DNA of 64,000 bases. Origin: Thermodesulfobacteriota bacterium. GTDB lineage: Bacteria; Desulfobacterota; UBA8473. A program made the position numbers and the translations under genes. This document shows, piece after piece, positions 2,999 to 64,000 of this stretch (position 1 is the stretch's first letter; the number at the start of each line of letters is the position of its first letter). The notes under the pieces are model-generated. The model ran no database searches. It saw only the letters and a program-made list of their open reading frames with translations, and was not told where the DNA came from. The stretch covers positions 122,917-186,916 of the forward strand of contig JBFLWQ010000001.1 of assembly GCA_040757775.1 (NCBI GenBank), in the 5' to 3' direction.

Positions 2999-3413
2999 TA
3001 GTTCCTCCTATGATCAGACAGAAAACCATAACTACAACAATGGTAAGGATGAGGATGCCGTGGAATAGGAGCATCGTCTTCGAGAGGATACTCTCGGGCC
3101 ACGTTGCATTCCCTTCGCCCTTGAAGGTGGCCGCGTTCATTCCGAAGTCGATATCGTCTTGTTCCCGTGCTCGTATCTGGTCGTAGAGCCATCGGTAGAG
3201 CCGCTCTTGGTATAGGTAATACCCATCGAGTATCCAAAAGGCGATGGCAGGCAGATAAGCAAGGTACACGAAAAGGGGGTTGGTCTCCTTGGCCGCGAGA
3301 GCAAAGAGACCTGAAACCAAAATAACGCTCCAGCCCTTTAGCAAGAAGGAACAATGAGCCATCCGATTAATTATGTCTTGAATCATCTCAAGGTGCTTTA
3401 GTTTCTTCTCCAT
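2991..3413 (-). CDS. Small multi-TM membrane protein paired with the TIR-like gene
   Basis: 140-residue protein with a soluble N-terminus, two closely spaced hydrophobic segments (about 24-45 and 47-66), a charged cytosolic stretch with YYLYQERLYRWLYDQIR, and a C-terminal hydrophobic helix (about 112-136). The motif FLLKGW followed by FALAAKE, WILDGYYLYQER and DFGMN belongs to a widespread uncharacterised membrane family that I associate with TIR-type partners; I do not know an accepted name. Its stop overlaps the TIR start. By analogy with two-gene TIR systems it could be the membrane-disrupting effector, but this is inference. Confidence 0.7.
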   Translation of the reverse strand: MEKKLKHLEMIQDIINRMAHCSFLLKGWSVILVSGLFALAAKETNPLFVYLAYLPAIAFWILDGYYLYQERLYRWLYDQIRAREQDDIDFGMNAATFKGEGNATWPESILSKTMLLFHGILILTIVVVMVFCLIIGGTNG

Positions 3414-3424
3414 ATTCTCTCCTG

Positions 3425-3485
3425 ATTTAACCAGTTCTAATCAGCCGTGCGGCTTTTTGTGTCGGCTGAATTAGCTATGTTATGC
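3425..3485 (-). repeat. Imperfect hairpin resembling an integron attC site
   Basis: On the minus strand this 61-base element runs from GCATAAC to GTTAAAT. Between them lie arms CTAATTCAGCCG and CGGCTGATTAG, which pair along 11 bases with a single unpaired base. A bulged stem flanked by RYYYAAC-like and GTTRRRY-like ends is the layout of attC sites. The right end fits GTTRRRY; the left end differs from the consensus at one position. It sits in the gap between the HEPN gene and the membrane/TIR pair. It could instead be a simple stem-loop or mRNA structure. Confidence 0.4.
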
Positions 3486-3563
3486 AAGTAGTTAATTGGA
3501 CATTCGAGTAGCATCTTAATCATGCTTGATCGTTTCATTTATCGCCTTTTTAACGCTGCTTAC

Positions 3564-4910
3564 TTACATAGCATTGCTTTCATCTCTCATAATTAGCTCA
3601 AGTTCCTTAGTAATAACTCGTCTGCACATCAACTGAAGTACTCTGAAAAGCGCTAGTTCTTCGTAGCTAAGTCTATTCTTGCCTCTATGAACGATCCTCG
3701 ACCTGACGTCGTAGATATCTTTGAAGTTTTTGAGAATTTCCTCTCTCTGGCTATGGCTCTTTCCTATGAGATAGGCACATCTGTTCCCTAACAGTTCCCC
3801 TATACTAAGGAGGTCAGTCTTGTGCTTGTGCTGCTCTCCAAGTAAGATTTCCATTGCTACCATGCTCTGAACAAATGATAGTAGTTGGTTTTTTTCTAAA
3901 TAACTGTCTAAAAGCCACTGCGAAGCCAATAAGATAGGCTTGGCCTTCTCTGGATTTTGAAATGCTGTTGATACGATGAGAAGCCTGCTCTGAATCATCC
4001 CTTTCATTCCCTCTCTGTCAAGGTGACCGTTAAGGTCATCTATTTCAAGCTTGTCAAGTACCCCGGAAAGGTCTGAGGGAAGGTTATATTTAGTCCATAT
4101 CTCCCAGTTTTCTCCCAGTTGGCGATGCACAATCAACCCTCTCACGGCAGGCAATCCCACCCCAAATGGGGAGATGACTGGCTCCTTGCCTATTTTCATC
4201 AAGCGAACCGCTAAGGATAGCCCTATGAATTTTTTTATTTTGGAAATTGCTTCCCGTACAGGTGCGCTTTCCTGGATGTAACCGATGAAGCCTTCAGTAT
4301 TTATATGAAAGTATGAGCTTTGTTTGTTCCACTGATCCGGTACATATCCTGTGTAGACTCCCAATCCTGAAGGAAGACCTCCAGGACCATGTAACCTTTC
4401 ATACCTATTTCTATTACTAGACTGCAACGGATAGGTAGTGTCAAAGGTTTCATCGGGAGAAACGATTCTAAAATCCCTGTCAAACTTATAGTGGCCCACT
4501 GCCTCTCGCATTTGCTGGCTGATGTTACTAGGAAGCTCAAATGAGATCAAGTACGACCACGGGAGACTTTGAAAAGCGCTGATCAATTTGCTTGCGACTG
4601 CATGCAAGTCTTCATACCCAGGAAGCGTATTTAACAGGATTCCCTTGCTATCTGGGTTGTATGTGCCGCTTTCCCCAATGTCCCTAGTTATTGTTTCGTA
4701 GATAAAATCAAAGAGTGGTGATTCTCCGGCATACTGATCTAGTTTATCCCTGAGCTTTCCAGTTTTTGGCAGTATCTCATCAACGGCATCAAGACCTAAT
4801 ATCGTATCGGTATCTAGATAGATACCCTTGTTTACTCGGATGTGGGTGAGATTTTCGGCCACTGACTTGATCAGTTGAGATATGCACCCTTGATGCAACC
4901 CAAGTGCCAT
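3564..4910 (-). CDS. Large protein with C-terminal Apea-like HEPN domain
   Basis: 448-residue protein. The N-terminal ~330 residues are unrecognised and rich in alpha/beta segments. The C-terminal ~110 residues form an Apea-like HEPN domain with the signature Arg403-x4-His408 (VRSRIVHRG), the catalytic pair of many HEPN ribonucleases. HEPN proteins in phage-defence islands generally act as RNA-cleaving effectors, so an abortive-infection role is plausible but inferred. It begins 18 bp downstream of the lipoprotein gene and is probably in the same transcription unit as the repressor and ImmA genes. There is no obvious antitoxin partner next to it. Confidence 0.65.
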   Translation of the reverse strand: MALGLHQGCISQLIKSVAENLTHIRVNKGIYLDTDTILGLDAVDEILPKTGKLRDKLDQYAGESPLFDFIYETITRDIGESGTYNPDSKGILLNTLPGYEDLHAVASKLISAFQSLPWSYLISFELPSNISQQMREAVGHYKFDRDFRIVSPDETFDTTYPLQSSNRNRYERLHGPGGLPSGLGVYTGYVPDQWNKQSSYFHINTEGFIGYIQESAPVREAISKIKKFIGLSLAVRLMKIGKEPVISPFGVGLPAVRGLIVHRQLGENWEIWTKYNLPSDLSGVLDKLEIDDLNGHLDREGMKGMIQSRLLIVSTAFQNPEKAKPILLASQWLLDSYLEKNQLLSFVQSMVAMEILLGEQHKHKTDLLSIGELLGNRCAYLIGKSHSQREEILKNFKDIYDVRSRIVHRGKNRLSYEELALFRVLQLMCRRVITKELELIMRDESNAM

Positions 4911-4928
4911 TGTAAGAAGAATCCTCTA

Positions 4929-5495
4929 CTACTTAATTAGGTTTAGTTCCAGGCTATTGATGGCATTTGAAAAGGCTTCACTAATTGACGCTTCGCCACT
5001 TCTATATCCCCATACATTGAGTTTTGTAGAGTATCCGCGTATTCGTTTGTCAATCAACATCTCCTTTTCCTTGAAGATTTTGACATCATAAATAACGTCT
5101 CCAATCCAATGTCCCTTTTTAAAATCGAGTTTGAAAATGAGGATTGATATATTGAACAGTAATGATGGATTTTGGTCTTTGCCTACAATATCAAAGCCCT
5201 GCAACCTGTCTTCAAAGGCATTGTAAAATAGTCTCGAAAGATTTTTATCTACGTCAACTTCCGGTTTCCCTTGTAGAACCGTTATGACATCAAATCTGCT
5301 TGCATCGTAAGTTTTTTTAAAGTCCGATCCGAATATCTCCTTGTCTTCCCGGAGGTCCTGGATGTTAAAAGCCAATTTTACATGGTCAAGTTTTTGAGTC
5401 TCAATGGCTTTTTTGTACGATACGACTATTCTGCTGTTTAGTGTGGAGCAACCCAAAAGATTTAGTATTATGACCAGGATTGTTATATAGCGCAT
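4929..5495 (-). CDS. Lipoprotein of unknown function
   Basis: 188-residue predicted lipoprotein: MRYITILVIILNLLGC gives a short hydrophobic segment with a lipobox and Cys16 as the lipidation site. The mature part (SYKKAIETQKLDHVKLAFNIQDLREDKEIFGSD by pattern, shown here only in outline) is mixed alpha/beta with no family I recognise. It lies 8 bp downstream of the ImmA-like gene in the repressor operon. Expression from a lysogen would place it in the envelope, where lysogenic-conversion or superinfection-exclusion roles are common, but nothing in the sequence proves this. Confidence 0.65.
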   Translation of the reverse strand: MRYITILVIILNLLGCSTLNSRIVVSYKKAIETQKLDHVKLAFNIQDLREDKEIFGSDFKKTYDASRFDVITVLQGKPEVDVDKNLSRLFYNAFEDRLQGFDIVGKDQNPSLLFNISILIFKLDFKKGHWIGDVIYDVKIFKEKEMLIDKRIRGYSTKLNVWGYRSGEASISEAFSNAINSLELNLIK

Positions 5496-5503
5496 AAGCC
5501 CCC

Positions 5504-5974
5504 CTACCTCCTAAGTTTCAACTGTCTGTATCCATCATAAACATCCAGTCTAAAGTCAACCAGGTACTTGGGTACGCTATATTTTTCCGAAATGTCTTCA
5601 TTGTTTTTAATATCATCGATTAGACAACAGGTAGGAATAATTGCTAGTGCAGCAAGGATACTTGCCTGTCTTTCAATCTTGCTCAGCCAGTTCCTTGCCA
5701 GGTAGAAGTGGGTTGTACCAGGGTGATATTTGAAGTGGAAGTATTCGTGGAATCCTACAAAGGTTTTGTGCCCCTCCATTAACCGTTTCTTGATAATGAT
5801 ACAAGGATGATCGTCTATAACGAGATACCAGCCATTCCATGGGATCTTACACTGATATGTGATGATGCCCTCTTTTTCGCATAAAGATTCAAAGTCGTCA
5901 TAATTCAGAGGAGTCTTATTGTATTTTGGAATCTTTGATTCCAGACTATAGATAATTTCCTCTGTCAGTGACAT
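5504..5974 (-). CDS. ImmA/IrrE-type metallopeptidase
   Basis: Zinc peptidase that in mobile elements cleaves the adjacent XRE repressor after DNA damage and so triggers excision. The HExxH motif is HEYFH, with a third-ligand candidate Glu about 22 residues later (KIERQAS). It immediately follows the XRE gene on the minus strand. Two starts are possible: the ATG at 5972-5974 used here, or a GTG at 5978-5980 that overlaps the repressor stop as GTGA. The pairing with an XRE gene is the classical ImmR/ImmA arrangement. Confidence 0.85.
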   Translation of the reverse strand: MSLTEEIIYSLESKIPKYNKTPLNYDDFESLCEKEGIITYQCKIPWNGWYLVIDDHPCIIIKKRLMEGHKTFVGFHEYFHFKYHPGTTHFYLARNWLSKIERQASILAALAIIPTCCLIDDIKNNEDISEKYSVPKYLVDFRLDVYDGYRQLKLRR

Positions 5975-5976
5975 GG

Positions 5977-6414
5977 TCACCTATTCCGATCACGTTTTCT
6001 TTTGATCACTTCCCTTACGTGTCGTATTGCTAGCCTTACATCCTCTTTATCGTTTTCTGAAAGCTCATCGAAGTCTTTGAAGTCGTTGAATAGACCTTTA
6101 ATTTCTTCATCTTGGTTCATGCGTTTAAGACCCAGGCCTTGTTTGACTTCATTTACTATCTCTGACTTTATAGATTGGAGATACTCTTTCACTTCAGAAG
6201 GTTCTTTCTGTTGCCTTCTTGCTTCGAGTATTTCTCTAGGGTCTGTGTTGAATAGTTTGGCGATGTCTATTATCGTTTTCTCTGAAGGAATAAATTTCCC
6301 CGATTCTATGTTACCGAAATATGCTTCACTTTTTCCTATTGCCTTTGATGCGGAAAACTGAGTATGCCCGGATTGTTCTCTTAGCCGCTTTATGATGTCT
6401 TTGAATTCTTCCAT
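5977..6414 (-). CDS. XRE-family repressor (ImmR/CI-like)
   Basis: About 145 residues. Residues 5-60 form a helix-turn-helix of the XRE/Cro-CI class (LREQSGHTQFSASKAIG then AYFGNIESGKFIPS). The C-terminal part is a charged helical region likely used for dimerisation or ImmA recognition. The ATG at 6412-6414 is preceded by GGAGG; a GTG four codons earlier overlaps that site and was rejected. It is transcribed away from the early operon from the promoter at 6447-6475. It is inferred to repress the divergent early promoter, with the adjacent ImmA-like peptidase relieving repression. Confidence 0.85.
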   Translation of the reverse strand: MEEFKDIIKRLREQSGHTQFSASKAIGKSEAYFGNIESGKFIPSEKTIIDIAKLFNTDPREILEARRQQKEPSEVKEYLQSIKSEIVNEVKQGLGLKRMNQDEEIKGLFNDFKDFDELSENDKEDVRLAIRHVREVIKRKRDRNR

Positions 6415-6446
6415 CCATCCCTCCACTTAAATCGACATGATTGGTT

Positions 6447-6475
6447 ATATTAACTTGATTTTTTTTTAAATTCAA
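6447..6475 (-). promoter_or_regulatory. Promoter for the repressor operon
   Basis: On the minus strand, -35 TTGAAT (6470-6475) and -10 TAATAT (6447-6452) are separated by 17 bp, about 30 bases upstream of the XRE start. The A-tract in the spacer is an additional promoter-like feature. It lies back to back with the early promoter, an arrangement typical of a lysogeny switch. Confidence 0.5.
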
Positions 6476-6487
6476 TGAATTTTTTTC

Positions 6488-6516
6488 TTGACACATAGAT
6501 ATTTACATGTTAGTAT
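6488..6516 (+). promoter_or_regulatory. Early (lytic/excision) promoter
   Basis: A perfect -35 TTGACA (6488-6493), a 17-bp spacer and -10 TAGTAT (6511-6516) lie 31 bases upstream of the Cro-like start. The spacer and -10 overlap the repeated motif at 6501-6518, suggesting that a repressor could occlude the polymerase. It is expected to drive the long plus-strand operon. Confidence 0.65.
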
Positions 6517-6541
6517 TCAAATAAAAACACCAAAAGTTGGT
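6501..6541. promoter_or_regulatory. Candidate operators between divergent regulators
   Basis: Three short patterns occur here. ATTTACATGTTAGTATT at 6501-6517 recurs with one change at 6763-6779, just after the Cro-like gene. GTATTCAAAT near 6513 recurs as GTATTCGAAT near 6540. A 13-bp palindrome ACCAA-AAG-TTGGT spans 6529-6541. Any of these could be binding sites for the XRE or Cro-like proteins. Assignment is by position and symmetry only. Confidence 0.4.
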
Positions 6542-6547
6542 ATTCGA

Positions 6548-6763
6548 ATGAAAAAGAGTGATTTCAATCCTGATAGAATCTACGAAATAAGAATAAAGAG
6601 AGGATTTGTTTTAACGGACCTAGCGACACTCTGTGGTGTCTCCCCTGCTCTTGTTCACTATTGGGAGAAGGGTAAATGTACGCCTACCCCAAAGAGGATC
6701 TATACTCTGGCTAAGAAACTGGGAATTGAACCAGAATATTTTTTTACAAAGGATACTCAGTAA
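6548..6763 (+). CDS. Cro-like small XRE regulator
   Basis: 71-residue helix-turn-helix protein from the ATG at 6548; longer upstream starts would overlap the promoter. Residues about 10-62 form an XRE domain (YEIRIKRGFVLTDLATLCG, VSPALVHYWEKGK). First gene of the early operon and divergent from the ImmR-like repressor, so a Cro-type antirepressor role is likely. A copy of the 6501 motif lies across its stop codon region, which could feed back on the operon. Confidence 0.75.
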   Translation: MKKSDFNPDRIYEIRIKRGFVLTDLATLCGVSPALVHYWEKGKCTPTPKRIYTLAKKLGIEPEYFFTKDTQ

Positions 6764-6857
6764 TTTACATGTTAGCATTATGCTATTCTGGAATAATGAA
6801 ACCACAATAAAATCTCAGTTTCAAGGTAAAAGTAAGGTAAATATTGGAGAGCAAGGA

Positions 6858-7352
6858 ATGAAAACTCTTGCAATTGCCGAGGGCGGTAATGGAAAGCACT
6901 TTGCTCTATCGGCACATGTCCTCTACAGGTGCCTGATTTATGAAAAAAGGTACCGCCTACAAGAAGTCGCCAGGAAGATTCGCCTTCCTGTATCCACCCT
7001 CTACAAGTACTGCCAAGGAATTTACGCTTGCCCGGTAGAAATACTGAAACGAATCTTTACAGTCACGCAGGATATAGAAATTCTGGAGTTGCTCAAACCG
7101 GACGGATATGACTTTATCCGTGCGGAGAAATGTACAGGAGCTCCAATGTCTACTGTTGAGGTTGAGTTCAATGATGACTTTTTGGCTGTGTCAAAGGTAG
7201 TAGATGCCTATCGACTGGCAAAGGAAGATGGAAAGATTGATGAGAGAGAAACTGAGATACTTGACCGCCTTTTGGACATAGCAAAATGTGAGATTGAAGA
7301 GACAAGACAAGTTATCAGCAGTGAGATAGGCAAGGAAGGAAGGGGACGATGA
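6858..7352 (+). CDS. Phage CII-like regulatory protein
   Basis: 164-residue protein starting at ATG 6858 (AGGA-like ribosome site); the frame is open further upstream but that part overlaps the Cro-like gene and is not expected to be translated. The N-terminal half (LYRCLIYEKRYRLQEVARKIRLPVSTLYKYCQG, described here as residues about 20-55) is a helix-turn-helix resembling the phage regulatory CII family. The C-terminal half is acidic and helical. It probably activates or represses lysogeny promoters. Its TGA overlaps the ATG of the next small gene. Confidence 0.65.
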   Translation: MKTLAIAEGGNGKHFALSAHVLYRCLIYEKRYRLQEVARKIRLPVSTLYKYCQGIYACPVEILKRIFTVTQDIEILELLKPDGYDFIRAEKCTGAPMSTVEVEFNDDFLAVSKVVDAYRLAKEDGKIDERETEILDRLLDIAKCEIEETRQVISSEIGKEGRGR

Positions 7353-30966: not shown

Positions 30967-31479
30967 ATGATTGTAGAGTTTAATGGGAAGAAACCCCGGA
31001 TAGACGATAGTTCTTTTGTTGCCCCAAACTCGACCATAATTGGAGATACTCTTATTTCTGAAAATACATTGATACTCTATGGGGCTATTTGCAGGGCTGA
31101 TTTTAACCACATATTTATAGGTCCTGGATCATGCGTACAGGAAAATGTTGTTTTAAATCCTATGCCGGATGAACCAATAATAATAGAGGGAGAATCCATC
31201 ATAGGATATGGCAGTATAATACATGGGGGAACAATTGAGAAAAACTCCTTTATAGGAGCAGGGTCAATAATCCTCCATGATGTAGTTATAGGAACTGAAT
31301 CTATTGTCGCGGCAGGTTCTATGGTAACTGCCGGAACCAAAGTGCCCCCGCGATCTCTGGTTGTTGGAGTGCCCGGTAAGGTCGTCAGAAAGCTGGAAGA
31401 CCCTGACGTGGCATGGATAAAGAAAGGGGTTAATGGTTACCAAAAGCTGCTGCCTGAATATAAAAATATTCATAGTTGA
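30967..31479 (+). CDS. Gamma-carbonic-anhydrase-like left-handed beta-helix protein
   Basis: 170 residues of hexapeptide repeats (FVAPNSTIIGD, FIGAGSIILHDVVIG) ending in VPPRSLVVGVPGKVVRKL, the gamma-CA/PaaY/YrdA family. Of the three zinc His residues expected, only the one in SIIHGG is evident; the first region reads VVLNPMP and the second GYGS. So it is probably not an active carbonic anhydrase; it may be structural or an acyltransferase-like protein. Ribosome site GAGGAGG. Follows the helicase gene by 20 bp, perhaps cotranscribed. Confidence 0.8.
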   Translation: MIVEFNGKKPRIDDSSFVAPNSTIIGDTLISENTLILYGAICRADFNHIFIGPGSCVQENVVLNPMPDEPIIIEGESIIGYGSIIHGGTIEKNSFIGAGSIILHDVVIGTESIVAAGSMVTAGTKVPPRSLVVGVPGKVVRKLEDPDVAWIKKGVNGYQKLLPEYKNIHS

Positions 31480-31597
31480 GCATAATTAAAAGCTACCAAA
31501 GCCCTCCCTGTTGGCTACCTATGAGATGCCGCCTAATGAGTAAAGCGGAGGTAACCCTAAGAGAACAAAGAGGAATATGCCCTTTCTTGTTTCAAAA

Positions 31598-31620
31598 ACT
31601 GTTTTAAAGGATAAAACAGT
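31598..31620. repeat. Hairpin in the gene-free stretch 31480-31976
   Basis: ACTGTTTTA-AAGGA-TAAAACAGT, perfect 9-bp arms; not followed by a T-tract. The 497-bp gap otherwise holds an isolated 13-base match to a loxP arm (31671-31683) and the left boundary of the cassette at 31836. I see no ORF or RNA gene in it. Confidence 0.5.
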
Positions 31621-31835
31621 AAGTTGAAAAGAAGAGTGGAAGGGTGATATAGTTTTGGGAAAGGGTTGTCTATACGAAGTTATACGGATATATCTCGAAA
31701 ATGTGAGTATATCGGGATTGGTCTGGATATGAATGAAACCTTAAAATGTCACTTCGGCTATCAATCGTATGGACGGCTGAAGCCCAAATGCTCTTATTGA
31801 AGCACCTTGCTCATACGCCAGCCCGTTACGTGAAA

Positions 31836-31888
31836 TTGGTCGCTTTAATAGGGGATGTTTTTTTGTTAAAGATATTATTGGCAAAATT
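31836..31888 (+). repeat. Left inverted boundary sequence of the ParB/PAPS cassette
   Basis: TTGGTCGCTTT (31836-31846) and TTATTGGCAAAATT (31875-31888). Both occur in reverse complement, in mirror order, at 35092-35120 after the last cassette gene. Similarity also extends about 15 bases further out (GTTA..TGAA.TTGG). Confidence 0.7.
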
Positions 31889-31976
31889 TTAACAGAGTAT
31901 TCTTAAATAATTAGAAAAGCGAGAAATACAATGAGAGATAAGTATGAGTTCTTTTTAAGGAAAAGGAGATAAGAAA

Positions 31977-32795
31977 ATGGTAGAAAAAGGTATAAACAAT
32001 AGTAATATACCGACATTACCTGTTAATAAAATTAATATTGGTAGGTGGAATGTAAGAACTTTAGATAGAGAAAAAGGAGTTGATGAACTTGCTGAAAGCA
32101 TAGAAAAGTATGGATTGCTTCAGCCTATTGTAGTTTTTCAAGAAGGAGATAGGTACAATCTAATAATAGGCCAACGGCGGGTGCAAGCTTTCAAGAAATT
32201 AAAAAAGAAAGAGATACCTGCGGTTATTCTGCCAGAGAAGCCTGATGAGGAACACTTAAAAATACTGTCCTTGAGTGAAAATATTCACAGAGTTGAGTTA
32301 AACAGAGCAGATATAGTTGAGGTTATTAGTTATCTTTATGAGAAGTATAATAAATCTGCTAAAAAAGTTGCTCAAATTCTAGGTAAAAGTGCTCCTTATA
32401 TATATGAGCACCTCAAAATTCAGAATGCACCGGAAGAAGTCAAGCAAATGCTATCCAGGAAAGAGATTAGTAAGGAAGATGTAAAAAGGGTGATGGAGAT
32501 TGCAGCAGATGATAAAGCTACAATGATAGAATTAGCCAGAGAAATGAAAAAACTCACACCTTATGAAAGGAAAAGATTAGCCGATGTTGTGAAGATTAAG
32601 CCTAACGCGAAAGTGAAAGAATTAATTGAAGAGGCAAAGAACCCTCGTATAGAAGAAAAGATTATTATCCCACTAACACCTAAATTGCTAAAGGCATTAG
32701 ATAGTGCAGTAAAAGAGATAGGTTTGAGTCGAGAAGAAATTGCCAAGAAAGCCTTAGAAGATTGGCTCGGCAATAAAGGATATTATAAGGGATAA
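31977..32795 (+). CDS. ParB/Spo0J-like protein with nuclease-fold and HTH domains
   Basis: 272 residues. ParB N-terminal domain: VDELAESIEKYGLLQPIVVF and GQRRVQAF (box II, canonical GERR), then LSENIHRVELN. The KorB/Spo0J-type HTH follows (SAKKVAQILGKSAPYIYEHLKI). A C-terminal RHH-like tail (LLKALDSAVKEIGLSREEIAKKAL) ends the protein. No ParA is nearby, so chromosome or plasmid segregation is unlikely. ParB-fold proteins beside PAPS-reductase-like enzymes (as in IbrB/IbrA) may bind CTP or DNA in modification systems. First gene of the AT-rich cassette; GGAGAT ribosome site. Confidence 0.8.
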   Translation: MVEKGINNSNIPTLPVNKINIGRWNVRTLDREKGVDELAESIEKYGLLQPIVVFQEGDRYNLIIGQRRVQAFKKLKKKEIPAVILPEKPDEEHLKILSLSENIHRVELNRADIVEVISYLYEKYNKSAKKVAQILGKSAPYIYEHLKIQNAPEEVKQMLSRKEISKEDVKRVMEIAADDKATMIELAREMKKLTPYERKRLADVVKIKPNAKVKELIEEAKNPRIEEKIIIPLTPKLLKALDSAVKEIGLSREEIAKKALEDWLGNKGYYKG

Positions 32796-32797
32796 TT

Positions 32798-33475
32798 ATG
32801 GATTTTAAGATCTTAGCAAAAATTGGTAAAGGAACTAAAAGAAAAAAAAGGGATATAAATCTTCTTGAAGTAGCCGAAGAAATGAAATCTCTTTACACTA
32901 TCCATCAGTCATTAGACAAGGTGGCAAAAATTGTAAAACTTTCTCCTGAAATGGTAAGGCAATTTTTGAAAATTAATGAGTTAGATGAAAGCGTTAAGGA
33001 ATTGATAAAGAATGATTTAATCAAAGGAGTTGATATTGGTTATAGAGTTTCAAAACTTTCTAAAAAAGATCAAATTATATTTGCAAAGCATATTATAGAG
33101 AAGAATATTTCTTCTAAAGATGTAAGAGCCATTGTAAGGTATAAAATTGATAACTCTAAAATGCCTGTAGAAAAAGCCATCAACGAAGTTATCCAGTCAA
33201 AAGATAAAAAGATTTATGTTGCTTACCTTGGGATTGAAGAGGATACTTATGAAAAATTATTAGAGAAAAACAGAGAACATATTCTAATGTCTATCTTTAA
33301 TAATGTTATTCCAAGAGAATCCATTATCTCTTTTGAAATAAATGGGAGGGTAGTAATAGCTAAGGTTCTAAAAGAAGGCTTACAGGAAATGAGAAACAAG
33401 GCAAAAAATTTAAACGTCCCTCTTGCTAAATTAGCCGATGCTTTAGTGAAAGAACATCTGGGAGGTAATAAATAA
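32798..33475 (+). CDS. ParB-related HTH protein lacking the ParB nuclease-fold domain
   Basis: 225 residues. The central HTH (SLDKVAKIVKLSPEMVRQFLKINEL) resembles the second domain of ParB, but no GERR-type box precedes it. C-terminal ~90 residues include a beta-strand region and an RHH-like end (NVPLAKLADALVKEHLG) echoing the tail of the gene upstream. It starts 2 bp after the first ParB gene, so the pair is translationally coupled. It may be a DNA-specificity subunit, which is inference. Confidence 0.6.
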   Translation: MDFKILAKIGKGTKRKKRDINLLEVAEEMKSLYTIHQSLDKVAKIVKLSPEMVRQFLKINELDESVKELIKNDLIKGVDIGYRVSKLSKKDQIIFAKHIIEKNISSKDVRAIVRYKIDNSKMPVEKAINEVIQSKDKKIYVAYLGIEEDTYEKLLEKNREHILMSIFNNVIPRESIISFEINGRVVIAKVLKEGLQEMRNKAKNLNVPLAKLADALVKEHLGGNK

Positions 33476-33477
33476 TC

Positions 33478-34089
33478 ATGCGGACAAGAGCCGATTCTGC
33501 TATTGCCCAAGAATTGGATGAATTACTTGCTAAATCTACACCATATGCTTTATCAAGCCCCTCATTTGGAAGTCCTACCATTCATGATTTTGTTAAAGGG
33601 CTTATACTTTCAACCAATATCATAGAGGTAATTGGTGGTAAAGATAAACATCTCCCAAATGGATTTAGAGCAGACTGGGGACAGGTGATAGATGAAAAAG
33701 ATGGAAACACTTTATCTAAAGAATGCGACATCATAATATATAAAGACAAGCCTCTCAAACTCATTGAAAACAAGTCTATTAGATTTGTACTGGTTGGTAA
33801 GAAACAGACAAAAATAGTCATTGAGGTTAAAAGTAGCATTCAGAGTGTAACCGCTGATATTAGAAATTATTGTAAGGAGTTAAAAAAATCTGTATCTGAT
33901 ATCTGGTTTATTGCTGAGTGTTGCTGGGCAAAGAGTAAAAATAGAGCAGACACTATAGAGCAAGACTTGAAAAATGCAGGATACAAGCATTTTTTCTATT
34001 TTTATAGGATGAATGACAAGACATTAATTAAAACGATTGATTATGAACCATTTATCAAATTTATTAAATTGATTAGAAGAATCAAATGA
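33478..34089 (+). CDS. PD-(D/E)XK-like restriction nuclease
   Basis: 203 residues. The core ECDIIIYKD (Asp84) and KIVIEVKSS (Glu116-x-Lys118) follow the restriction-endonuclease pattern, with preceding helices in HDFVKGLILSTNI. Similar DUF-type nucleases accompany phage-defence cassettes. It starts 2 bp after the preceding stop. Its presence next to a PP-loop enzyme suggests a modification/restriction logic. Target unknown. Confidence 0.65.
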   Translation: MRTRADSAIAQELDELLAKSTPYALSSPSFGSPTIHDFVKGLILSTNIIEVIGGKDKHLPNGFRADWGQVIDEKDGNTLSKECDIIIYKDKPLKLIENKSIRFVLVGKKQTKIVIEVKSSIQSVTADIRNYCKELKKSVSDIWFIAECCWAKSKNRADTIEQDLKNAGYKHFFYFYRMNDKTLIKTIDYEPFIKFIKLIRRIK

Positions 34090-34099
34090 GGCTAAATTC

Positions 34100-35065
34100 A
34101 TGAAAAGTTCTAAAAATAATAATCAATGGTGGCAACCAATAGAGGAAACTTTTGCTGGGATTAGTTTAAAGGGGCTTAAGGTTATATGTCCTCAGTGTGG
34201 AGAACATGGTTTGGTTATTACCAGATGGATAAAAGGTCCTGTATTGAAACCCATTTACATCCTCCATATTAAATGGAGAAAAGCAAGAAAAGTATGTGAA
34301 CTTAGTGAAGAACAGTCTAAGGGTGTTAGGAGTGAAGTTTCTATCTTCAAAAGTGATATTAAGAGACTTTTAGATTCAAGAAAATCGTTTATTCTGTTTA
34401 GTGGAGGGAATGATAGTCTTGCTACTTTGTCTTACCTAAAAGACATTACCAAGGGGGTAAAAAGTGATTTAACTGCAATTTATGTTGATACAACCGCAGG
34501 ACTTCCTGAAAATGCAAAATATGTAAAGGAAGTCTGTAAATATTTGGGTATTAATCTTAAAATAGTAGGCCCCAAGGTGGATTATTTTACTTTGGCTAAA
34601 AAGTGGGGTATCCCAAGCTTTAAATATAGATGGTGCTGTCGTGAGTTGAAAATCAAACCTATTGAAGAATTTCTGAGTACTATAAAAGAACCTAAAGTGG
34701 TTTTTGATGGAATAAGAGCTGCGGAGTCTAATGCAAGAAGACAATATATACCAGTATGGTATCACCCAACTTTTAAGTGCCTTTCTGTTAGCCCCATTTT
34801 CTATTGGTCTAATGAACAGGTAATTTCGTATGTAAATAGTAATGGAATCCCTAAAACCTTTTTGCACTCTTTAGGAACTTCTACAGAATGTTGGTGTGGA
34901 GCATACAAAACAAAATCTGATTTTGAAAAGTTATTTAATTTAGACAGAGATATGTTTTATAAATTAGTTGAAGTAGAAGAAGAAAATAAAGGTAGATATA
35001 CTTTTATTTACGAAAATGGTCAAAAGATTTCGTTAAAAGAATTGGCAAAAACTCTAAAGAAATAA
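34100..35065 (+). CDS. PAPS-reductase/DndC-family PP-loop enzyme
   Basis: 321 residues. N-terminal zinc knuckle CPQCG (Cys30/33). The ATP-pyrophosphatase PP-loop is ILFSGGNDS (101-106). Further family features: YVDTTAGLPE, YRWCCRELKIKP (Cys179/180), GIRAAESNAR and ECWCGAYKTKSDF (Cys264/266). A CC...CxC set could hold an iron-sulphur cluster, as in APS reductases and DndC. Members activate sulphate esters or insert sulphur; in Dnd systems they act in DNA phosphorothioation. The canonical C-terminal ECGLH of assimilatory enzymes is absent, arguing against sulphate assimilation. Confidence 0.8.
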   Translation: MKSSKNNNQWWQPIEETFAGISLKGLKVICPQCGEHGLVITRWIKGPVLKPIYILHIKWRKARKVCELSEEQSKGVRSEVSIFKSDIKRLLDSRKSFILFSGGNDSLATLSYLKDITKGVKSDLTAIYVDTTAGLPENAKYVKEVCKYLGINLKIVGPKVDYFTLAKKWGIPSFKYRWCCRELKIKPIEEFLSTIKEPKVVFDGIRAAESNARRQYIPVWYHPTFKCLSVSPIFYWSNEQVISYVNSNGIPKTFLHSLGTSTECWCGAYKTKSDFEKLFNLDRDMFYKLVEVEEENKGRYTFIYENGQKISLKELAKTLKK

Positions 35066-35088
35066 CAATTGATAGTCAGTTGTCTTTT
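35064..35088 (+). terminator. Terminator after the PAPS-family gene
   Basis: ACAATTGA-TAG-TCAGTTGT stem (eight pairs including one G-T) overlapping the stop codon, followed by TTTT. It closes the four-gene transcript before the right boundary. Confidence 0.5.
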
Positions 35089-35091
35089 GAT

Positions 35092-35120
35092 AATTTTGCC
35101 AATAAAAGAAAAGCGACCAA
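35092..35120 (-). repeat. Right inverted boundary sequence of the ParB/PAPS cassette
   Basis: AATTTTGCCAATAA (35092-35105) and AAAGCGACCAA (35110-35120) are exact reverse complements of the two blocks at 31875-31888 and 31836-31846. Spacing between blocks is shorter (4 versus 28 bases). Confidence 0.7.
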
Positions 35121-35211
35121 GTTCAGCTAACACGGTTTTGTGGTAAGCTACGCTTCCTTAAATTTTGCTCCATAAAACTTCACAACCACCTGATAGTTTA
35201 AAGGAAAACAA

Positions 35212-35379
35212 GTGAACAAAAAGGGAAAAGATAAACTTGAAAAAGCCCTTAAAGCTTACTTTAGAGAAATTCATGGAATTTATATGGGGGGTAATTTCCG
35301 GGAGGAAAGCTTTTATCCCTCGTTAAAGGGGCTTATGGAAGACTATTCTCAACTTTTCTCCCTGAAAGGTGGTTTGTGA
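35212..35379 (+). pseudogene. Truncated N-terminus of a type ISP/IIG-like DNA methylase
   Basis: 55 codons from GTG: LEKALKAYFREIHGIYMGGN and REESFYPSLKGLMED match the N-terminal start of large N6-adenine methylase/restriction fusions, which normally run beyond 1,000 residues. The frame stops after SLKGGL with no methylase motif anywhere downstream. It looks like the relic of a restriction gene deleted when the adjacent cassette arrived. It could still be translated as a peptide. The rest of the 35066-35461 gap shows no gene. Confidence 0.6.
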
Positions 35380-35461: not shown

Positions 35462-36304
35462 ATGGACCAGGAAACAAAGCCTAAATTTAAGATAGCCATC
35501 CTGCTTTTTGTTGCAACTTTAGCCACAACAATAATTGCCGGGGCGATTCAACAGGGGGTAAATCCCATAGAAACCCCTTTTAAAATCGTGAAGGGCATGC
35601 CCTTTGCTTTGACATTGATATTTATTCTGCTGTCCCATGAATTGGGTCATTATATCATGTCCAAAAGACACAATATCAATGTTACCCTACCCTATTTTAT
35701 CCCAGCCCCATCGTTTATTGGAACCTTCGGGGCATTTATAAAGATGAAATCACCCTTAGTGGACAGAAAGACCCTATTGGATATAGGTGCTAGCGGCCCA
35801 TTGGTTGGAACTATCGTTTCCATCCCCTTTCTCATCATGGGCTTGAAGTTGTCTGAAGTAAAAATAGCAACTGAGCCTGGTGGTGCAGCCCTGGGTTCTT
35901 CGATACTTTTCTCCCTTCTTGCCAAACTCACCCTGGGTTCTCTTCCGGAAAGTTACGATATTATCTTACATCCCATAGGGTTTGCCGGATGGATAGGGTT
36001 ATTGGTTACTTCACTGAACCTTCTGCCTGTAGGACAGCTTGATGGGGGACACGTAGCCTATGCAATCATGGGAGAAAAACAAAAAAGGCTTTCCATAATC
36101 ACCGTTTTCTTCCTCTTTGCCCTGGGTTTCTTTGGCTGGAAGGGATGGTTTATCTGGGGGTTTTTGCTCCTGTTAATGGGGATAAGACACCCTCGTCCAC
36201 TTGACCAGTGGACACCGCTGGACAGAAGAAGGAAAATTATCGGGTGGATAACCCTCATTACATTTGTTTTAACCTTTACCCCCATGCCGTTTAGGTATAT
36301 TTAG
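35462..36304 (+). CDS. Site-2-protease-type M50 membrane metalloprotease
   Basis: 280 residues with about six membrane helices. HELGH (His59-Glu60-x2-His63) gives the first zinc site; the third ligand Asp lies in LLPVGQLDGGHVAYA. An internal PDZ is absent, as in the short plant EGY/archaeal-type members. It cleaves membrane-spanning substrates within the bilayer. Substrate unknown. It may be cotranscribed with downstream envelope genes. Confidence 0.88.
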   Translation: MDQETKPKFKIAILLFVATLATTIIAGAIQQGVNPIETPFKIVKGMPFALTLIFILLSHELGHYIMSKRHNINVTLPYFIPAPSFIGTFGAFIKMKSPLVDRKTLLDIGASGPLVGTIVSIPFLIMGLKLSEVKIATEPGGAALGSSILFSLLAKLTLGSLPESYDIILHPIGFAGWIGLLVTSLNLLPVGQLDGGHVAYAIMGEKQKRLSIITVFFLFALGFFGWKGWFIWGFLLLLMGIRHPRPLDQWTPLDRRRKIIGWITLITFVLTFTPMPFRYI

Positions 36305-58458: not shown

Positions 58459-59025
58459 ATGGAAGGATGGACCGAAGAAGAAATTAGAAACAAGGATTTA
58501 ATGGCACCATGCGGGTTATACTGTGGTGTATGCGGAGTTTACCTTTCAACAAGGGATGGAAATGAAAAATTCAGGGCCACTATGGGGAACCTTTATGGAA
58601 CAAAACCCGAAGAAACAGCATGTTTAGGGTGTATGCAGCCTGATCCACCGAAAAAGCTCTACGGTATATGTAATGTATGCAAAGTAAGGGATTGTGTAAA
58701 ATCAAAGGGATATTACTCTTGCCATCAATGCAAGGAATGGCCGTGCAGCATGATTCAGAATTTCCCCCTTGCCACTGGCGCAAGAGTTATGAAAAGAACG
58801 ATCCCAATATGGCGGGCAAAGGTAGCCGAGTGTGGTGATGAGAGAGGCAGTGTGGAATGGGTCCGATCAGAATGCGAACGTTATCATTGTTCTTCATGCG
58901 GCAAACCGCTTTTCAGAGGTGCACAACGTTGTAGAGTATGCAAAAAACCAGTAGCCGATGAACTGGACGGGTCCCTTCAAGCTGATGTTGATATGAAGAA
59001 AATGCACCAATGGCTCATTGAGTAG
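58459..59025 (+). CDS. DUF3795-family cysteine-rich protein
   Basis: 188 residues from an ATG with AAAGGAGG. Many Cys pairs: MAPCGLYCGVCGVY, CLGCMQPDPP, GICNVCKVRDC, YSCHQCKEWPC, CSSCGKPLFRG and CRVCKK. The N-terminal part is the DUF3795 signature; a zinc ribbon closes the protein. Probably metal- or iron-sulphur-binding. Function unknown. Upstream in-frame codons to 58279 are rejected because they cross the repeat copy B. Confidence 0.8.
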   Translation: MEGWTEEEIRNKDLMAPCGLYCGVCGVYLSTRDGNEKFRATMGNLYGTKPEETACLGCMQPDPPKKLYGICNVCKVRDCVKSKGYYSCHQCKEWPCSMIQNFPLATGARVMKRTIPIWRAKVAECGDERGSVEWVRSECERYHCSSCGKPLFRGAQRCRVCKKPVADELDGSLQADVDMKKMHQWLIE

Positions 59026-59102
59026 GATAGGGATGGCTGTACTAGCTCAATAATTCACTATGATATGAAAATCTAAGGTAATTCCTTACATCAAGAAAAT
59101 TC

Positions 59103-59131
59103 TTGACTTTTTTTAGAAAAATTTATAGATT
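59103..59131 (+). promoter_or_regulatory. Promoter of the zapB-like/zapA unit
   Basis: TTGACT (59103-59108), 17-bp spacer, TAGATT (59126-59131), 62 bases upstream of the zapB-like start. AT-rich flanks. Confidence 0.45.
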
Positions 59132-59193
59132 AAGGGTTATCTTAAGAACAATAATCATAAATAAGTTTCTAATAAAGAACTGGTTAGGGGATA

Positions 59194-59418
59194 ATGATGG
59201 CAGATCTGAGTAATTTTGAAAAACTAGAAGGCAGAATAGATAACTTAATCAAACAAAGCACTTTTTTAAAAGAAGAAAATAAGATTTTGTTAGAAAAGCT
59301 AAATCAAAAGGATCAAGACATACATAAACTAACCGATAATATAGAAGAACTCCATAAGGAAAGGACATTAGTATTTGACAAGGTTGTTGGTCTGATTGAC
59401 AAACTAGAAGATATATAA
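59194..59418 (+). CDS. ZapB-like coiled-coil cell-division protein
   Basis: 74 residues that are almost entirely coiled coil (LEGRIDNLIKQSTFLKEENKILLEKL). Short coiled-coil proteins just before zapA are ZapB-like partners of the FtsZ ring. Starts with two Met codons. Overlaps nothing; zapA follows by 13 bp. Confidence 0.65.
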   Translation: MMADLSNFEKLEGRIDNLIKQSTFLKEENKILLEKLNQKDQDIHKLTDNIEELHKERTLVFDKVVGLIDKLEDI

Positions 59419-59431
59419 TTAGAGAGGAGCT

Positions 59432-59740
59432 TTGAAAAAAAATATAGATATTGAAATACTGGGCCAGAAATATACAATTAAAAGCGATGAAGAAGAAGTT
59501 TTTGTTTATAACATAGTAGATTATTTAAATAAAAAAATAGAGGAGGTATTACGAACCACCACAACTGTTGACACCCTTAATGCAATCGTCGTAGTGGCTT
59601 TAAATATTACTAGCGATCTCTTCCGGATAAAAAATGAAGAGGGATATCTTAGGCAGCAAATTGAAAACAAATCAGGACATTTGATTAGTTTAATTGACTC
59701 CTATGTTGATAATGAAGGAAACATCTCAAGTAATAATTAA
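59432..59740 (+). CDS. zapA: Cell-division protein ZapA
   Basis: 102 residues, TTG start with GAGAGGAG. IEILGQKYTIKSDEEEVFVYNIVDYLNKKI and TLNAIVVVALNITSDLF are ZapA signatures; a coiled-coil tail follows. Bundles FtsZ at mid-cell. Followed directly by 6S RNA, a conserved proteobacterial order. Confidence 0.88.
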   Translation: MKKNIDIEILGQKYTIKSDEEEVFVYNIVDYLNKKIEEVLRTTTTVDTLNAIVVVALNITSDLFRIKNEEGYLRQQIENKSGHLISLIDSYVDNEGNISSNN

Positions 59741-59749
59741 AACCCAATT

Positions 59750-59927
59750 CCCCCTGCTATGTTCGTGATAAACATATAATTTTGAGCCAACATATCTAAA
59801 AAGGGAACCGTCCCTTATTGTGGCAGGCATGCCCTCCTGAGGGGACGTCTAAAGCAGTAATATGGTGCCCACCTGGTAGTTAACTAGGTTCAAAATAAAC
59901 TGTTTACACGGCATTACGTGGGGGGGT
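59750..59927 (+). ncRNA. ssrS: 6S RNA
   Basis: 178 bases, the normal length. The 5' CCCCC (59750-59754) pairs with GGGGGGG (59921-59927) in the closing stem. Internal TTTTGAGCC pairs with GGTTCAAAA around the central bubble, and the end carries TGTTCGTGATAAAC / GTTTACACGGCA features seen in deltaproteobacterial 6S RNAs. It mimics an open promoter and binds sigma-70 polymerase. Location after zapA is the conserved one. The following 59928-60460 shows no convincing gene. Confidence 0.75.
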
Positions 59928-60460
59928 ATTAAGTGCTTTCTCATTTTTATTAAAAGTTTAAATTTTAAAGACAGGAGATATTTTTAGGATAGGGAGACAG
60001 AGTTAACTTACTGATGATAATAGAATAAGAGTTGGATAATACAGGTGAAAGGATAACGTTTTTAATATTTGAAAAGAATATGATTCGTTTTACAATAACA
60101 CCATATAACTAACACGGATTGAACAACTAAAGAAAATTATTATTTTAGGTCGATTAAATGACCGTACAAATAAAGTTTTTATGGCTAAACAGCTATACAA
60201 TAGAGGACGCCTTTTATGGTTATCTATCGGTCATACAATACGGGAAAAATCGCAACAATTATGAGTTATATGGGCTAGATATTTAAACTTAAAAACTTTT
60301 CAAACGATTTAAATTAATCTTCCATTTCACCTATCATTAATCATTCCAACCTTTGCTTTCATCAAATACAGAAATCATCGGCTAAATCCTAAAATAGGAT
60401 AATTATCTCCTGTTAGAAGCTTTTTTAATAAGTTAACCGTATAGGGAGGTGTTATATAAA

Positions 60461-62026
60461 TTGGGTATCTCTATAGAACTGTTTATATACTTTTTACTGA
60501 CTTTGGGCATTGGTGCTTTAATCGGTTTTATCCTTAGCAAGAGGTTTACCGAGGGTAGGATAAAACTTGCAGAAAATGCTGCAAAAAAGATAGTCGACGA
60601 TGCTAAAAAAGAGGCTGAAAACATTAAAAAGGAGGCTATGCTCCAAGCCAAAGATTACCTTTACCAAGCAAAGGGAGAATTTGAAAAAGAAACCAAAGAA
60701 AGAAAGAGTGAACTACAAAAGCTAGAGAGAAGATTCTTACAAAAAGAAGAACACCTTGATAAAAAAGTAAACTTGCTTGACCAGAAAGAGATTAATATCT
60801 CTAAAAGGGAAAAGAATCTGGTTCAACTAGAAAAAGAAATCTTGGAGAAGGAAAGAAAATATAGCACGTTAGTAAAAGAGCAAATGGAACAACTGGAAAA
60901 AATAGCTGAGATGTCATCTGAAAATGCCAAAAAACGTTTAATGGAGTTGATGGAAAATGATGCCAAGCATGAAGCAGCTAAAAAGATTAAGAAAATTGAG
61001 GATGAAACTAGAGAAATGGCAGACAAGATAGCAAAAGACATAATTTCTCTATCAATTGAAAGATATGCTGCTGATTGTGTTGCTGAAAAGACGGTTTCTG
61101 TGGTGAACCTTCCAAATGATGAGATGAAAGGACGAATCATAGGAAGAGAAGGAAGAAATATCCGTGCGATCGAGGCAGCTACCGGCGTTGACTTGATTAT
61201 TGATGATACACCTGAGGCAGTTATACTCTCAGGTCATAACCCTATAAGACGGGAAATAGCCAAAACCTCTCTGGAAAGGCTTATAAACAATGGAAGGATT
61301 CATCCTGCCAGGATAGAAGAGATTGTTGGAAAAGTTCAAGAAGAAATGGAGGTAACCCTTCGTGAAGCAGGAGAACAAGCTGCTTTTGACGTTGGAGTAC
61401 ATGGTATTCATTCCGAATTAATAAAACTTATAGGTAAACTTAAATTTCGAACCAGTTTTGCTCAAAATGTATTCCAACATTCCTTAGAAGTGGCATTTAT
61501 TTCTGGCATTCTTGCATCTGAATTGAAAGTGGGGGTTAAACAAGCAAAGAGAGCCGGGCTTCTTCACGACATTGGTAAAGCGGTAGATCATGAAGTAGAA
61601 GGGTCTCATGCAATTATTGGTGCTAACTTAGCGAAGAAATATGGAGAGTCTCCAGAGATTATACATGCTATCTCAGCCCACCACAATGATGAATCCCCCA
61701 AATCCGTTTTAGCCGTTTTAGTACAAGCAGCAGACACTCTATCTGCCGCCAGACCAGGTGCCCGAAGAGAAATGTTAGAGACCTATGTTAAACGCCTCGA
61801 AGACTTGGAAAGAATAGCAAATTCCTTCCAAGGAGTCAGTAAATCATATGCAGTCCAAGCGGGAAGAGAACTGAGAGTAATTGTAGAAAGCTCGGTAACA
61901 TCGGATGAAGACTCAATTATGACAGCTAGGGATATAGCAAAAAAGATAGAGGATGAATTGAGCTATCCGGGCCAGATTAAAATTACGGTTATCAGAGAAA
62001 CCAGAGCTATTGAATATGCAAAATGA
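60461..62026 (+). CDS. rny: Ribonuclease Y
   Basis: 521 residues. N-terminal membrane helix ([18 protein letters not shown]), long coiled coil (about 30-190), KH domain ([23 protein letters not shown]) and HD domain ([26 protein letters not shown]). Endoribonuclease that starts mRNA decay at the membrane. TTG 60461 chosen because GGGAGG precedes it; the GTG at 60449 is inside that site. Confidence 0.93.
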
Positions 62027-62038
62027 GGAGAATATCTT

Positions 62039-62824
62039 TTGAGGGTTCTGTTCATTGGAGATATAGTTGGAAAACCAGGCAGACGAGCTATTTTCGAGCT
62101 TTTAAATAATATCAAGGATTCCTACAAGGTCGACTTGGTTATTGCTAATGCAGAGAATGCGTCGGGAGGGTTCGGTGTTACTCTAAAGATTATTAGGGAA
62201 TTGTTGGACAATGGTATAGATTTATTAACTTCAGGCAACCACATCTGGGATAAAAAGGAGATTATTGAGTGGTTCGATGAGGAAAAATACTTGCTACGTC
62301 CAGCTAATTACCCTACAGAAAACCCTGGTACCGGTAGTGCCGTTCTTAAGACACCTTTCGGAGAAAATATAGGAGTTTTAAATGTTCTGGGCAGGGTATT
62401 TATGAATACTGTAGACTGCCCTTTTAAAACTGCTGTAGAGGAAGTCAACAAATTAAAAGAGAAAACTAAAGTCATCCTTATAGACATTCACGCCGAGGCT
62501 ACCTCTGAAAAAATAGCAATGGGCTGGTTTCTCGATGGAAAAGTAAGTGCTGTTATTGGAACACATACCCATATCCAAACAGCAGACGAAAAGATTTTGC
62601 CAAAAGGGACTGCATATATTACCGATGTAGGCATGACAGGTGCTATGGATTCAGTAATAGGCATAGAAAAGGAAATTGTTATAGAACGTTTTTTAACTCA
62701 AAGACCTCAAAGGTTTAAAGTAGCAAAAAGAGATATACAACTTAATGCTGTATTAATAGATATTGACCCACAAACTGGCAAAAGCAACAGTATTAAAAGA
62801 TTAAAAATGGATTTAAATATTTAA
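62039..62824 (+). CDS. YmdB-like metallophosphoesterase (TIGR00282)
   Basis: 261 residues, TTG start with GAGGAG. RVLFIGDIVGKPGRR, NAENASGGFGV, SGNHIWDKKE, IDIHAEATSEK, GTHTHIQTADE form the binuclear metal site. YmdB hydrolyses cyclic nucleotides (cAMP) in Bacillus. Located directly after rny, as in many genomes. Confidence 0.92.
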   Translation: MRVLFIGDIVGKPGRRAIFELLNNIKDSYKVDLVIANAENASGGFGVTLKIIRELLDNGIDLLTSGNHIWDKKEIIEWFDEEKYLLRPANYPTENPGTGSAVLKTPFGENIGVLNVLGRVFMNTVDCPFKTAVEEVNKLKEKTKVILIDIHAEATSEKIAMGWFLDGKVSAVIGTHTHIQTADEKILPKGTAYITDVGMTGAMDSVIGIEKEIVIERFLTQRPQRFKVAKRDIQLNAVLIDIDPQTGKSNSIKRLKMDLNI

Positions 62825-62836
62825 AAAGGTATTAAG

Positions 62837-64000
62837 ATGAATGTAGAACAACAATTGGAAATCATAAAAAGAGGAACAGTGGAAATACTCATTGAAGATG
62901 AGTTGGCAAAGAAACTATGTGATTCTGAAAAAAATAGATCCCCCCTTAGGATAAAGGCTGGTTTTGACCCCACTGCTCCTGACCTTCATTTAGGCCATAC
63001 TGTGCTTATTCAAAAGCTCAAACAGTTTCAAGATCTAGGGCATCATGTCATATTTTTAATTGGAGATTTTACAGGAATGATCGGGGATCCCTCAGGAAAA
63101 TCTGAGACTAGAAAAGCTCTCTCTAAAAAAGATATTCTTATAAATGCTAAAACCTATCAAAGACAAATATTTAAGATACTTGATCCCCAAAAGACTCAAA
63201 TCGTTTACAACAGTCAGTGGATGGAAAAAATGTCTGGAATTGAATTAATAACACTATGTGCCCAATATACAGTTGCAAGAATGTTGGAAAGGGATGATTT
63301 CTATAAAAGATATTCAAATCAGCAACCTATTAGCATCCATGAATTTATCTATCCTCTTATTCAGGGTTATGACTCTGTGGCATTGAAAGCCGATGTAGAA
63401 TTAGGGGGAACGGATCAAAAATTTAATTTGCTTGTGGGGCGAGAGATTCAAAAGGCATATCACTTGAACCCTCAGGTTATAATTACTATGCCTATCCTAG
63501 AAGGACTCGATGGGGTAAATAAAATGAGTAAATCACTTAACAATTATATTGGTATCGACGAACCGCCCCAAGAGATTTTTGGGAAGGTTATGTCAATTTC
63601 TGACGACCTTATGATGAGATACTATGAACTAATTAGTGATATTTCCATAAAAGACCTTAAAGCACTTAAGGAAAATATTCGAATGGGTAAAGAACACCCA
63701 AAGGAGACAAAAAAGAAGCTGGCTATAGAAATAGTTGGGCGTTTTTATAATAGTGAGGAAGCCTTAAAGGCATCTGAAGAATTTGATCTTATATTCAAGC
63801 ATAAAGAAACCCCAGACCAAATACAAGAAAAACAAATTTATTGGAATGAAAAAAATATCTGGCTGCCCCGTCTTATAACAATGTGCTCTGAGGTTGCTAA
63901 AAGTAACTCTGAATCAAAACGACTAATAAAACAAGGTGGTGTTAGCATCAATAGAGAAAAGGTTGTTGATGAAAATATAGAAATACCTGCTAAAGGAGAA
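62837..64000 (+). CDS. tyrS: Tyrosyl-tRNA synthetase, 3' end beyond window
   Basis: Opened at ATG 62837, open to the window edge (388 codons). Class [17 protein letters not shown] (HIGH), [49 protein letters not shown] (KMSKS), and the start of an S4 RNA-binding domain. TyrRS of the shorter bacterial type with the C-terminal S4 truncated by the edge. Activates tyrosine and charges tRNA-Tyr. Confidence 0.93.

Follow-up and report, generated by a model that had tools for sequence, protein, structure and literature searches.

A recurrent four-gene cassette encoding two ParB-type proteins, a nuclease-family protein and a PP-loop enzyme: a candidate defence system

Gene content and recurrence of the cassette

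The DNA analysed here (the window) is a 64,000-nucleotide stretch from a Thermodesulfobacteriota bacterium (contig JBFLWQ010000001.1). It carries a cassette of about 3.1 kb made up of four open reading frames (ORFs), all on the + strand. The first (31977-32795; ParB1) matches the Pfam families ParB_N (1.7e-15) and HTH_ParB, the second (32798-33475; ParB2) matches HTH_ParB alone (1.6e-7), the third (33478-34089) matches DUF6602 (4.3e-8), and the fourth (34100-35065; the PP-loop protein) matches PAPS_reduct (PF01507, 2.9e-24). Spacers of 2, 2 and 10 bp separate the genes, whose GC content is 0.30-0.35 (0.25-0.29 at third codon positions), as against 0.40-0.45 in most sampled neighbouring genes. 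A preliminary description made from the sequence alone had reported the tight packing and AT-richness of these genes, a ParB-fold protein with a helix-turn-helix (HTH) followed by a second ParB-type HTH protein, and the lack of a ParA; all of this is borne out. The ParA motif KGGxGK[TS] is found neither in the window nor in the other cassette loci, and the host's canonical ParB (with the motif GERR) adjoins a ParA-type ORF on contig C7, away from the cassette.

Co-occurrence of the four genes in other genomes had been set beforehand as a refutation test. A search with the PP-loop protein against 84,980 prokaryote species, one genome each, returned 16 loci. The order ParB1-ParB2-X-PP-loop, where X is the third gene, is kept in eleven distinct loci besides the window, in bacteria and archaea (L004, which is the same record as L018, L005, L006, L007, L010, L011, L012, L013, L015, L016 and L017; the start of ParB1 is lost at the contig end in L007). 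Two more, L008 and L009, are cut deeper by contig ends and still agree in gene order; L019 and L020 offer too little sequence for a judgement. Since homologous cassettes exist at other loci, the arrangement is not due to chance. The record titles name Aminicenantes, Methanophagales, Planctomycetota, Lokiarchaeota, Bacteroidetes, WOR-3, Woesearchaeota, Desulfobacterales, Zipacnadia and Syntrophaceae, any single one of which may be in error because the records are metagenome-assembled. The remaining locus, L014, is arranged differently and was set aside. It encodes (3392-6942) a 486-aa ParB-type protein with RxxxxH close to its end and then a radical-SAM/PP-loop fusion, and is possibly a further variant, in a single example, of the ParB plus PP-loop theme; a HEPN reading of its RxxxxH found no support in Pfam.

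The cassette is rare. Its PP-loop gene is present in 2 of 395 sampled genomes of the window's phylum, and ParB2 occurs in exactly the same two. A third match in the phylum (E 4e-18) was set aside as a different PAPS-type protein. Other genome samples, each of which holds its own seed genome, gave 2/343, 1/197, 1/199 and 3/397. Five scans of viral contigs produced no cassette and one distant PP-loop match only, and nothing was found on plasmids by tblastn with the ParB2 protein or with either type of third protein (DUF6602 or AlwI-type, see below).

Predicted properties of the four proteins

ParB1 (272 aa) combines a ParB nucleoside triphosphatase (NTPase) fold and a ParB HTH with a weak ribbon-helix-helix-like C-terminus, and its family profile matches Noc/ParB structures (E 1e-30). 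The features of a ParB nucleoside triphosphate (NTP) clamp (GxRR, ENxxR and HTH) are all found. The G, R and R of GxRR and the downstream ENxxR are invariant in an alignment of 12 sequences; the phosphate-binding motif itself reads GQRR in the window (32169-32180), as opposed to GERR in canonical ParB. Eleven of the 12 have Q at position 66 and L013 has H, and the glutamate of GERR is thus not kept. With the corresponding change in Bacillus subtilis ParB, E78Q, the clamp still closes but CTP is no longer appreciably hydrolysed (PMC8494293). By analogy, ParB1 may be a clamp that hydrolyses its nucleotide slowly or not at all; which nucleotide a ParB-type protein chooses is not predictable from sequence (PMC12704722). 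ParB2 (225 aa) has a ParB-type HTH and no NTPase domain. The ParB1 profile matches the ParB2 proteins of two relatives at profile positions 108-265 (the HTH and the C-terminal part), so ParB2 is probably a truncated paralogue corresponding to that part of ParB1. Upstream of ParB1, weak matches to a parS-like palindrome were seen in the window, L012 and L013, with no motif in common. The DNA that L011 and L012 share 5' of ParB1 (L011:3555-3857; L012:210-513) contains inverted repeats TTAGGTTA-N9-TAACCTAA and a second inverted repeat GCACTTCC...GGAAGTGC, which are possible candidates for binding or end sites.

The third gene is of one or the other of two types. It encodes a DUF6602 protein in eight loci (the window, L004, L007, L011, L012, L013, L015 and L017) and a member of the AlwI restriction-endonuclease family (RE_AlwI) in six (L005, L006, L008, L009, L010 and L016). 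The window's DUF6602 protein (203 aa) is a PD-(D/E)XK protein with a predicted NucC-like fold; the 14 best Protein Data Bank (PDB) matches of its AlphaFold model (mean predicted local distance difference test, pLDDT, 86.8) are all NucC, with E-values down to 2.4e-8. Catalytic-type residues are D84 (33727-33729), invariant in 8 of 8 copies, and E116 and K118 (33823-33831), the latter kept in 7 of 8. At the glutamate of ExK, E is found in the window only, Q in L007 and S in the six others. The preliminary description of a PD-(D/E)XK-like nuclease needs one correction here: the D...ExK set is complete in the window copy, but the glutamate is replaced in all seven other distinct copies. DUF6602 is not mentioned in the open-access literature searched. 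In the AlwI-type proteins, E31, D79, E92, E105 and H112 are intact in 6 of 6 copies, and the D/E/E/H spacing of 13/13/7 equals that of the R.BspD6I small subunit (2p14) column for column, at a weak E of 0.022. The D456A and E418A mutants of Nt.BspD6I are catalytically deficient (PMC6261011); D79 and E31 would correspond to these two residues.

The PP-loop protein (321 aa; model pLDDT 83.4) belongs to the PAPS-reductase superfamily and starts with a CxxC Zn-ribbon-like region. Four motifs stand out. CPQC (34187-34198) lies in the ribbon-like region (CPxC in 14 of 14 family members), and SGGNDS (34400-34417) is an intact ATP PP-loop motif (SGGxDS in 14/14). The pair C179-C180 (34634-34639) and the CWC formed with C264 and C266 (34889-34897) are candidate Fe-S ligands; both cysteine motifs, already picked out in the preliminary description, proved invariant in all 14. 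The CC aligns with the CC of Mycobacterium tuberculosis APS reductase. A structure and Fe-S check had been suggested: the model is PAPS/APS-reductase-like and the CC is kept, but of the APS-reductase pattern (CC plus CxxC) the second pair is CxC. The C-terminal catalytic cysteine motif of sulfonucleotide reductases, ECGxH, is present in none of the 14; Escherichia coli CysH, used as a control, has ECGLH and lacks SGGxDS. Judged by these motifs, with SGGxDS intact and ECGxH lacking, the PP-loop protein does not belong to the sulfonucleotide reductases, in agreement with the earlier view that it does not serve sulphate assimilation. By sequence it is closer to DndC than to CysH: the family model gives Rhizobium DndC 41 bits as against 26 bits for E. 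coli CysH, and DndC and the family both have RWCxxxLKIxP and GxRxxES, the likeness being confined to core motifs. DndC itself is present in 0 of 14 host genomes, the window's included.

A Foldseek search with the model returned PAPS/APS reductases as best matches, then tRNA thiolases with [4Fe-4S] clusters. The most likely assignment is a sulphur-transfer or related enzyme that uses ATP. That its substrate is DNA is a guess from context, and tRNA or some other target is possible because the structure search also matches the tRNA thiolases. Genes of the aminotransferase-V superfamily, which comprises cysteine desulfurases and other enzymes, are present in 14 of 14 host genomes. The nearest non-cassette relative among those tested (170 bits) is the PAPS-like gp88 of Acidianus tailed spindle virus (L038:2968-3750), which has SGGRDS and CWC and no CC. 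Three viral and two archaeal-plasmid relatives of PAPS-like type were examined as well, and none of them has an annotated ParB partner.

Modular exchange and genomic setting

The trees of ParB1 and ParB2 both divide precisely into the two nuclease types (support 100/100 and 99/99). The PP-loop tree does not follow nuclease type, three changes being needed, and the approximately unbiased (AU) test rejects a grouping of all AlwI-type PP-loop genes in one clade (p 9e-6). Because the ParB trees split by nuclease type and the PP-loop tree does not, ParB1, ParB2 and the nuclease travel as a module and the PP-loop gene is exchanged between modules. With L016 excluded, the rejection is lost (AU p 0.35), so that the tree test by itself backs just one exchange. 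Pairwise identities show the same pattern and suggest more than one. The window and L007 are 68-74% identical across all four genes. Identity between the window and L005 is 37% for ParB1, 32% for ParB2 and 76% for the PP-loop protein; the respective values are 60%, 52% and 47% for L016 and L005, and 33%, 30% and 63% for L016 and L004.

The cassette and its surrounds (31491-35197) are missing from sibling genomes: homology to sibling loci L048 and L051 ends at 31488-31490 and resumes at 35198. On the left lies a hexapeptide-repeat (gamma-carbonic-anhydrase-like) gene (30967-31479, + strand) and on the right an M50 peptidase gene (35462-36304, + strand), both common to the siblings. Three sibling genomes lack the cassette at this site. 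A DUF1016/YhcG nuclease takes its place in G137; in G039 the site carries a DUF1016/YhcG nuclease together with a 1031-aa type ISP/IIG restriction-modification (R-M) enzyme, and in G108 it carries part of another protein. What the window retains of the R-M enzyme is a 55-aa stub (35212-35379, + strand); its reading as a separate gene was rejected. The interval between the hexapeptide-repeat and M50 genes (window 35198-35379; L051:3304-6399; L048:3656-4801) thus holds DUF1016 nuclease, type ISP/IIG R-M genes or remnants. Because siblings hold such genes there, this interval is a defence-gene exchange site in the window's genus. Elsewhere, the neighbours of L006 include a type IIG R-M enzyme as well as nucleotidyltransferase/HEPN genes, and toxin-antitoxin genes lie near the cassette in some loci. 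These genomic settings, viewed with no comparison to a random background, favour a defence role.

L011 and L012 have 3.5 kb in common at 82% DNA identity between unrelated flanks. The shared DNA consists of the four genes with about 300 bp before and about 90 bp after them, and breaks off, just beyond the PP-loop gene, within the first part of a short reading frame (MNDILSKIASIKSVLGGYRPFP), which resembles the beginning of a further protein cut short.

Interpretation and comparison with known systems

The conserved gene set and order, the exchange of the nuclease, the ParB1-ParB2-nuclease module with its exchangeable PP-loop gene, the defence exchange site and the intact motifs support the view, tentatively preferred here, that the element is a mobile, R-M-like cassette directed against invaders, in which a ParB clamp takes the place of the Dnd or Ssp ATPase. 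ParB1 would load onto DNA as an NTP-dependent clamp, with ParB2 assisting in the choice of site. The PP-loop enzyme would activate DNA with ATP and insert sulphur by way of its cysteine/Fe-S site, the sulphur being delivered by a housekeeping cysteine desulfurase, and the third protein, be it DUF6602 or AlwI-type, would cut DNA that is without the mark or wrongly marked. The preliminary description had proposed a two-ParB, phosphorothioation-like modification coupled to restriction. The conserved unit, the absence of ParA and the defence-type nuclease speak for that proposal; sulphur on DNA is the part that we infer, and the likeness to DndC goes no further than core motifs. Two arguments not in the original case are the swapping of the nuclease slot for a restriction-enzyme family and the defence exchange site. 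It is conceivable, as a bolder proposal to be held more loosely, that the cassette represents a DNA-modifying defence of a new class, where an NTP clamp of the ParB type, and not an ABC or AAA+ ATPase, brings a generic ATP-dependent sulfurtransferase to DNA, with ParB1, ParB2 and the nuclease setting specificity while the sulfurtransferase is swapped. Partition and gene control are the known roles of ParB clamps; if the proposal is true, the cassette adds defence to them and is among the smallest sulphur-linked modification systems. Its size of about 3.1 kb and the natural part-swapped variants make it directly testable.

Several points weigh against a DNA-modifying R-M-like cassette. There is no ATPase or translocase in it, nor a known modification-reading domain, and DNA cutting by the DUF6602 type seems doubtful because the glutamate of ExK is gone in 7 of 8 copies. 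That the PP-loop gene moves between modules suits a catalytic subunit of generic use, but it is also compatible with a substrate other than DNA. Moreover, the PP-loop model aligns over nearly its full length with the tRNA thiolases TtuA and NcsA (E 8e-7 to 1e-5). This alignment favours a defence cassette of another kind, somewhat unlikely in our estimate, in which the PP-loop enzyme leaves DNA unmarked and its target for thiolation or adenylation is tRNA, a nucleotide or some protein, while the nuclease is an effector freed when ParB1 and ParB2 sense invading DNA. NucC, to which the predicted DUF6602 fold is nearest, is an abortive-infection effector. The effector nuclease of a long-B Argonaute system, structurally similar to BspD6I (PMC10620215), can be counted on the same side. 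Nevertheless, the TtuA/NcsA superpositions have a large root-mean-square deviation (12-18 Å), the cassette is without a signalling enzyme, and the AlwI-type nuclease points to restriction.

The retention by ParB1 of NTP-binding motifs and HTH without a ParA, together with the sorting of the ParB pair by nuclease type, might instead reflect a module against plasmids or other replicons, with ParB1 and ParB2 reading partition-like sites and recruiting the nuclease, and the PP-loop enzyme acting as regulator or immunity factor. ParB/Srx proteins mediate plasmid conflict, according to work cited in PMC12839542. Such a module is improbable: no recurring parS-like palindrome is found 5' of ParB1, and the constant retention of the PP-loop enzyme is left unexplained. 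Compactness, mobility (L011 and L012 share just the cassette with about 0.3 and 0.1 kb around it) and nearby toxin-antitoxin genes in some loci would suit a selfish, addictive element made of a toxin nuclease and a PP-loop/ParB antitoxin with no part in defence. Four components, three of them DNA-related, are unusual for an addiction pair, and the exchange site is also used by R-M genes, which makes this quite improbable. The family names ParB and PAPS reductase, taken alone, might suggest leftovers of partition or sulphate metabolism with no joint function. This is hardly credible because the neighbourhood is conserved: the order is kept across many phyla, and ParB2 and the PP-loop gene occur together. 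In addition, the host ParAB sits elsewhere and the reductase catalytic motif is lacking.

In its parts, the cassette appears to parallel both Dnd and Ssp: a PP-loop enzyme, an NTP-driven DNA-binding partner and a nuclease. With Dnd (DndABCDE and DndFGH) it has in common an SGGxDS PP-loop enzyme carrying the two core motifs (see above), a ParB-superfamily partner (DndB in that system) and a restriction nuclease. Unlike Dnd, it has no DndD- or DndE-like gene, its ParB1 is of the canonical ParB plus HTH type, and its PP-loop protein is of a distinct family, with a Zn-ribbon-like N-terminus and CC/CWC cysteines, scoring 26 bits in the DndC equivalog test against a cut-off of 290. No ABC ATPase or DndE is encoded among the four cassette genes, the rest of the genome not having been searched for DndD or DndE. 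In PADLOC, the PP-loop enzyme matches SspD and BrxP best, which belong to the SspABCD-SspE and type 4 BREX systems; unlike in these, just four small genes are present and no SspB, SspC, SspE, BrxC or PglZ adjoins them. In IbrA/IbrB, a ParB-fold protein lies beside a PAPS-reductase-family protein; the cassette differs from that pair in having two ParB-type proteins and a nuclease. Type IIS restriction enzymes (AlwI, R.BspD6I) resemble the alternative third protein in catalytic domain, whereas the cassette has no methyltransferase and the partners are ParB-type. The resemblance of DUF6602 to NucC lies in predicted fold; the DUF6602 protein is shorter, most members have lost the ExK glutamate, and there is no cyclase. 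ParB1 has the domain order and motifs of ParB CTPases that work without ParA (Noc, KorB) and differs from them in its GQRR and in sharing an operon with a nuclease and a PP-loop enzyme; unlike in ParABS partition, no ParA lies beside it. The combination, which the preliminary description did not recognise, likewise has no description in the open-access literature searched, including that on Dnd, BREX and ParB diversity, subscription papers and preprints being largely outside that scope.

Two more AT-rich stretches (GC 0.32-0.37) occur near the end of the window, at 59001-61000 and 62001-64000. The gene at 60449-62026 is, by eye, RNase Y-like.

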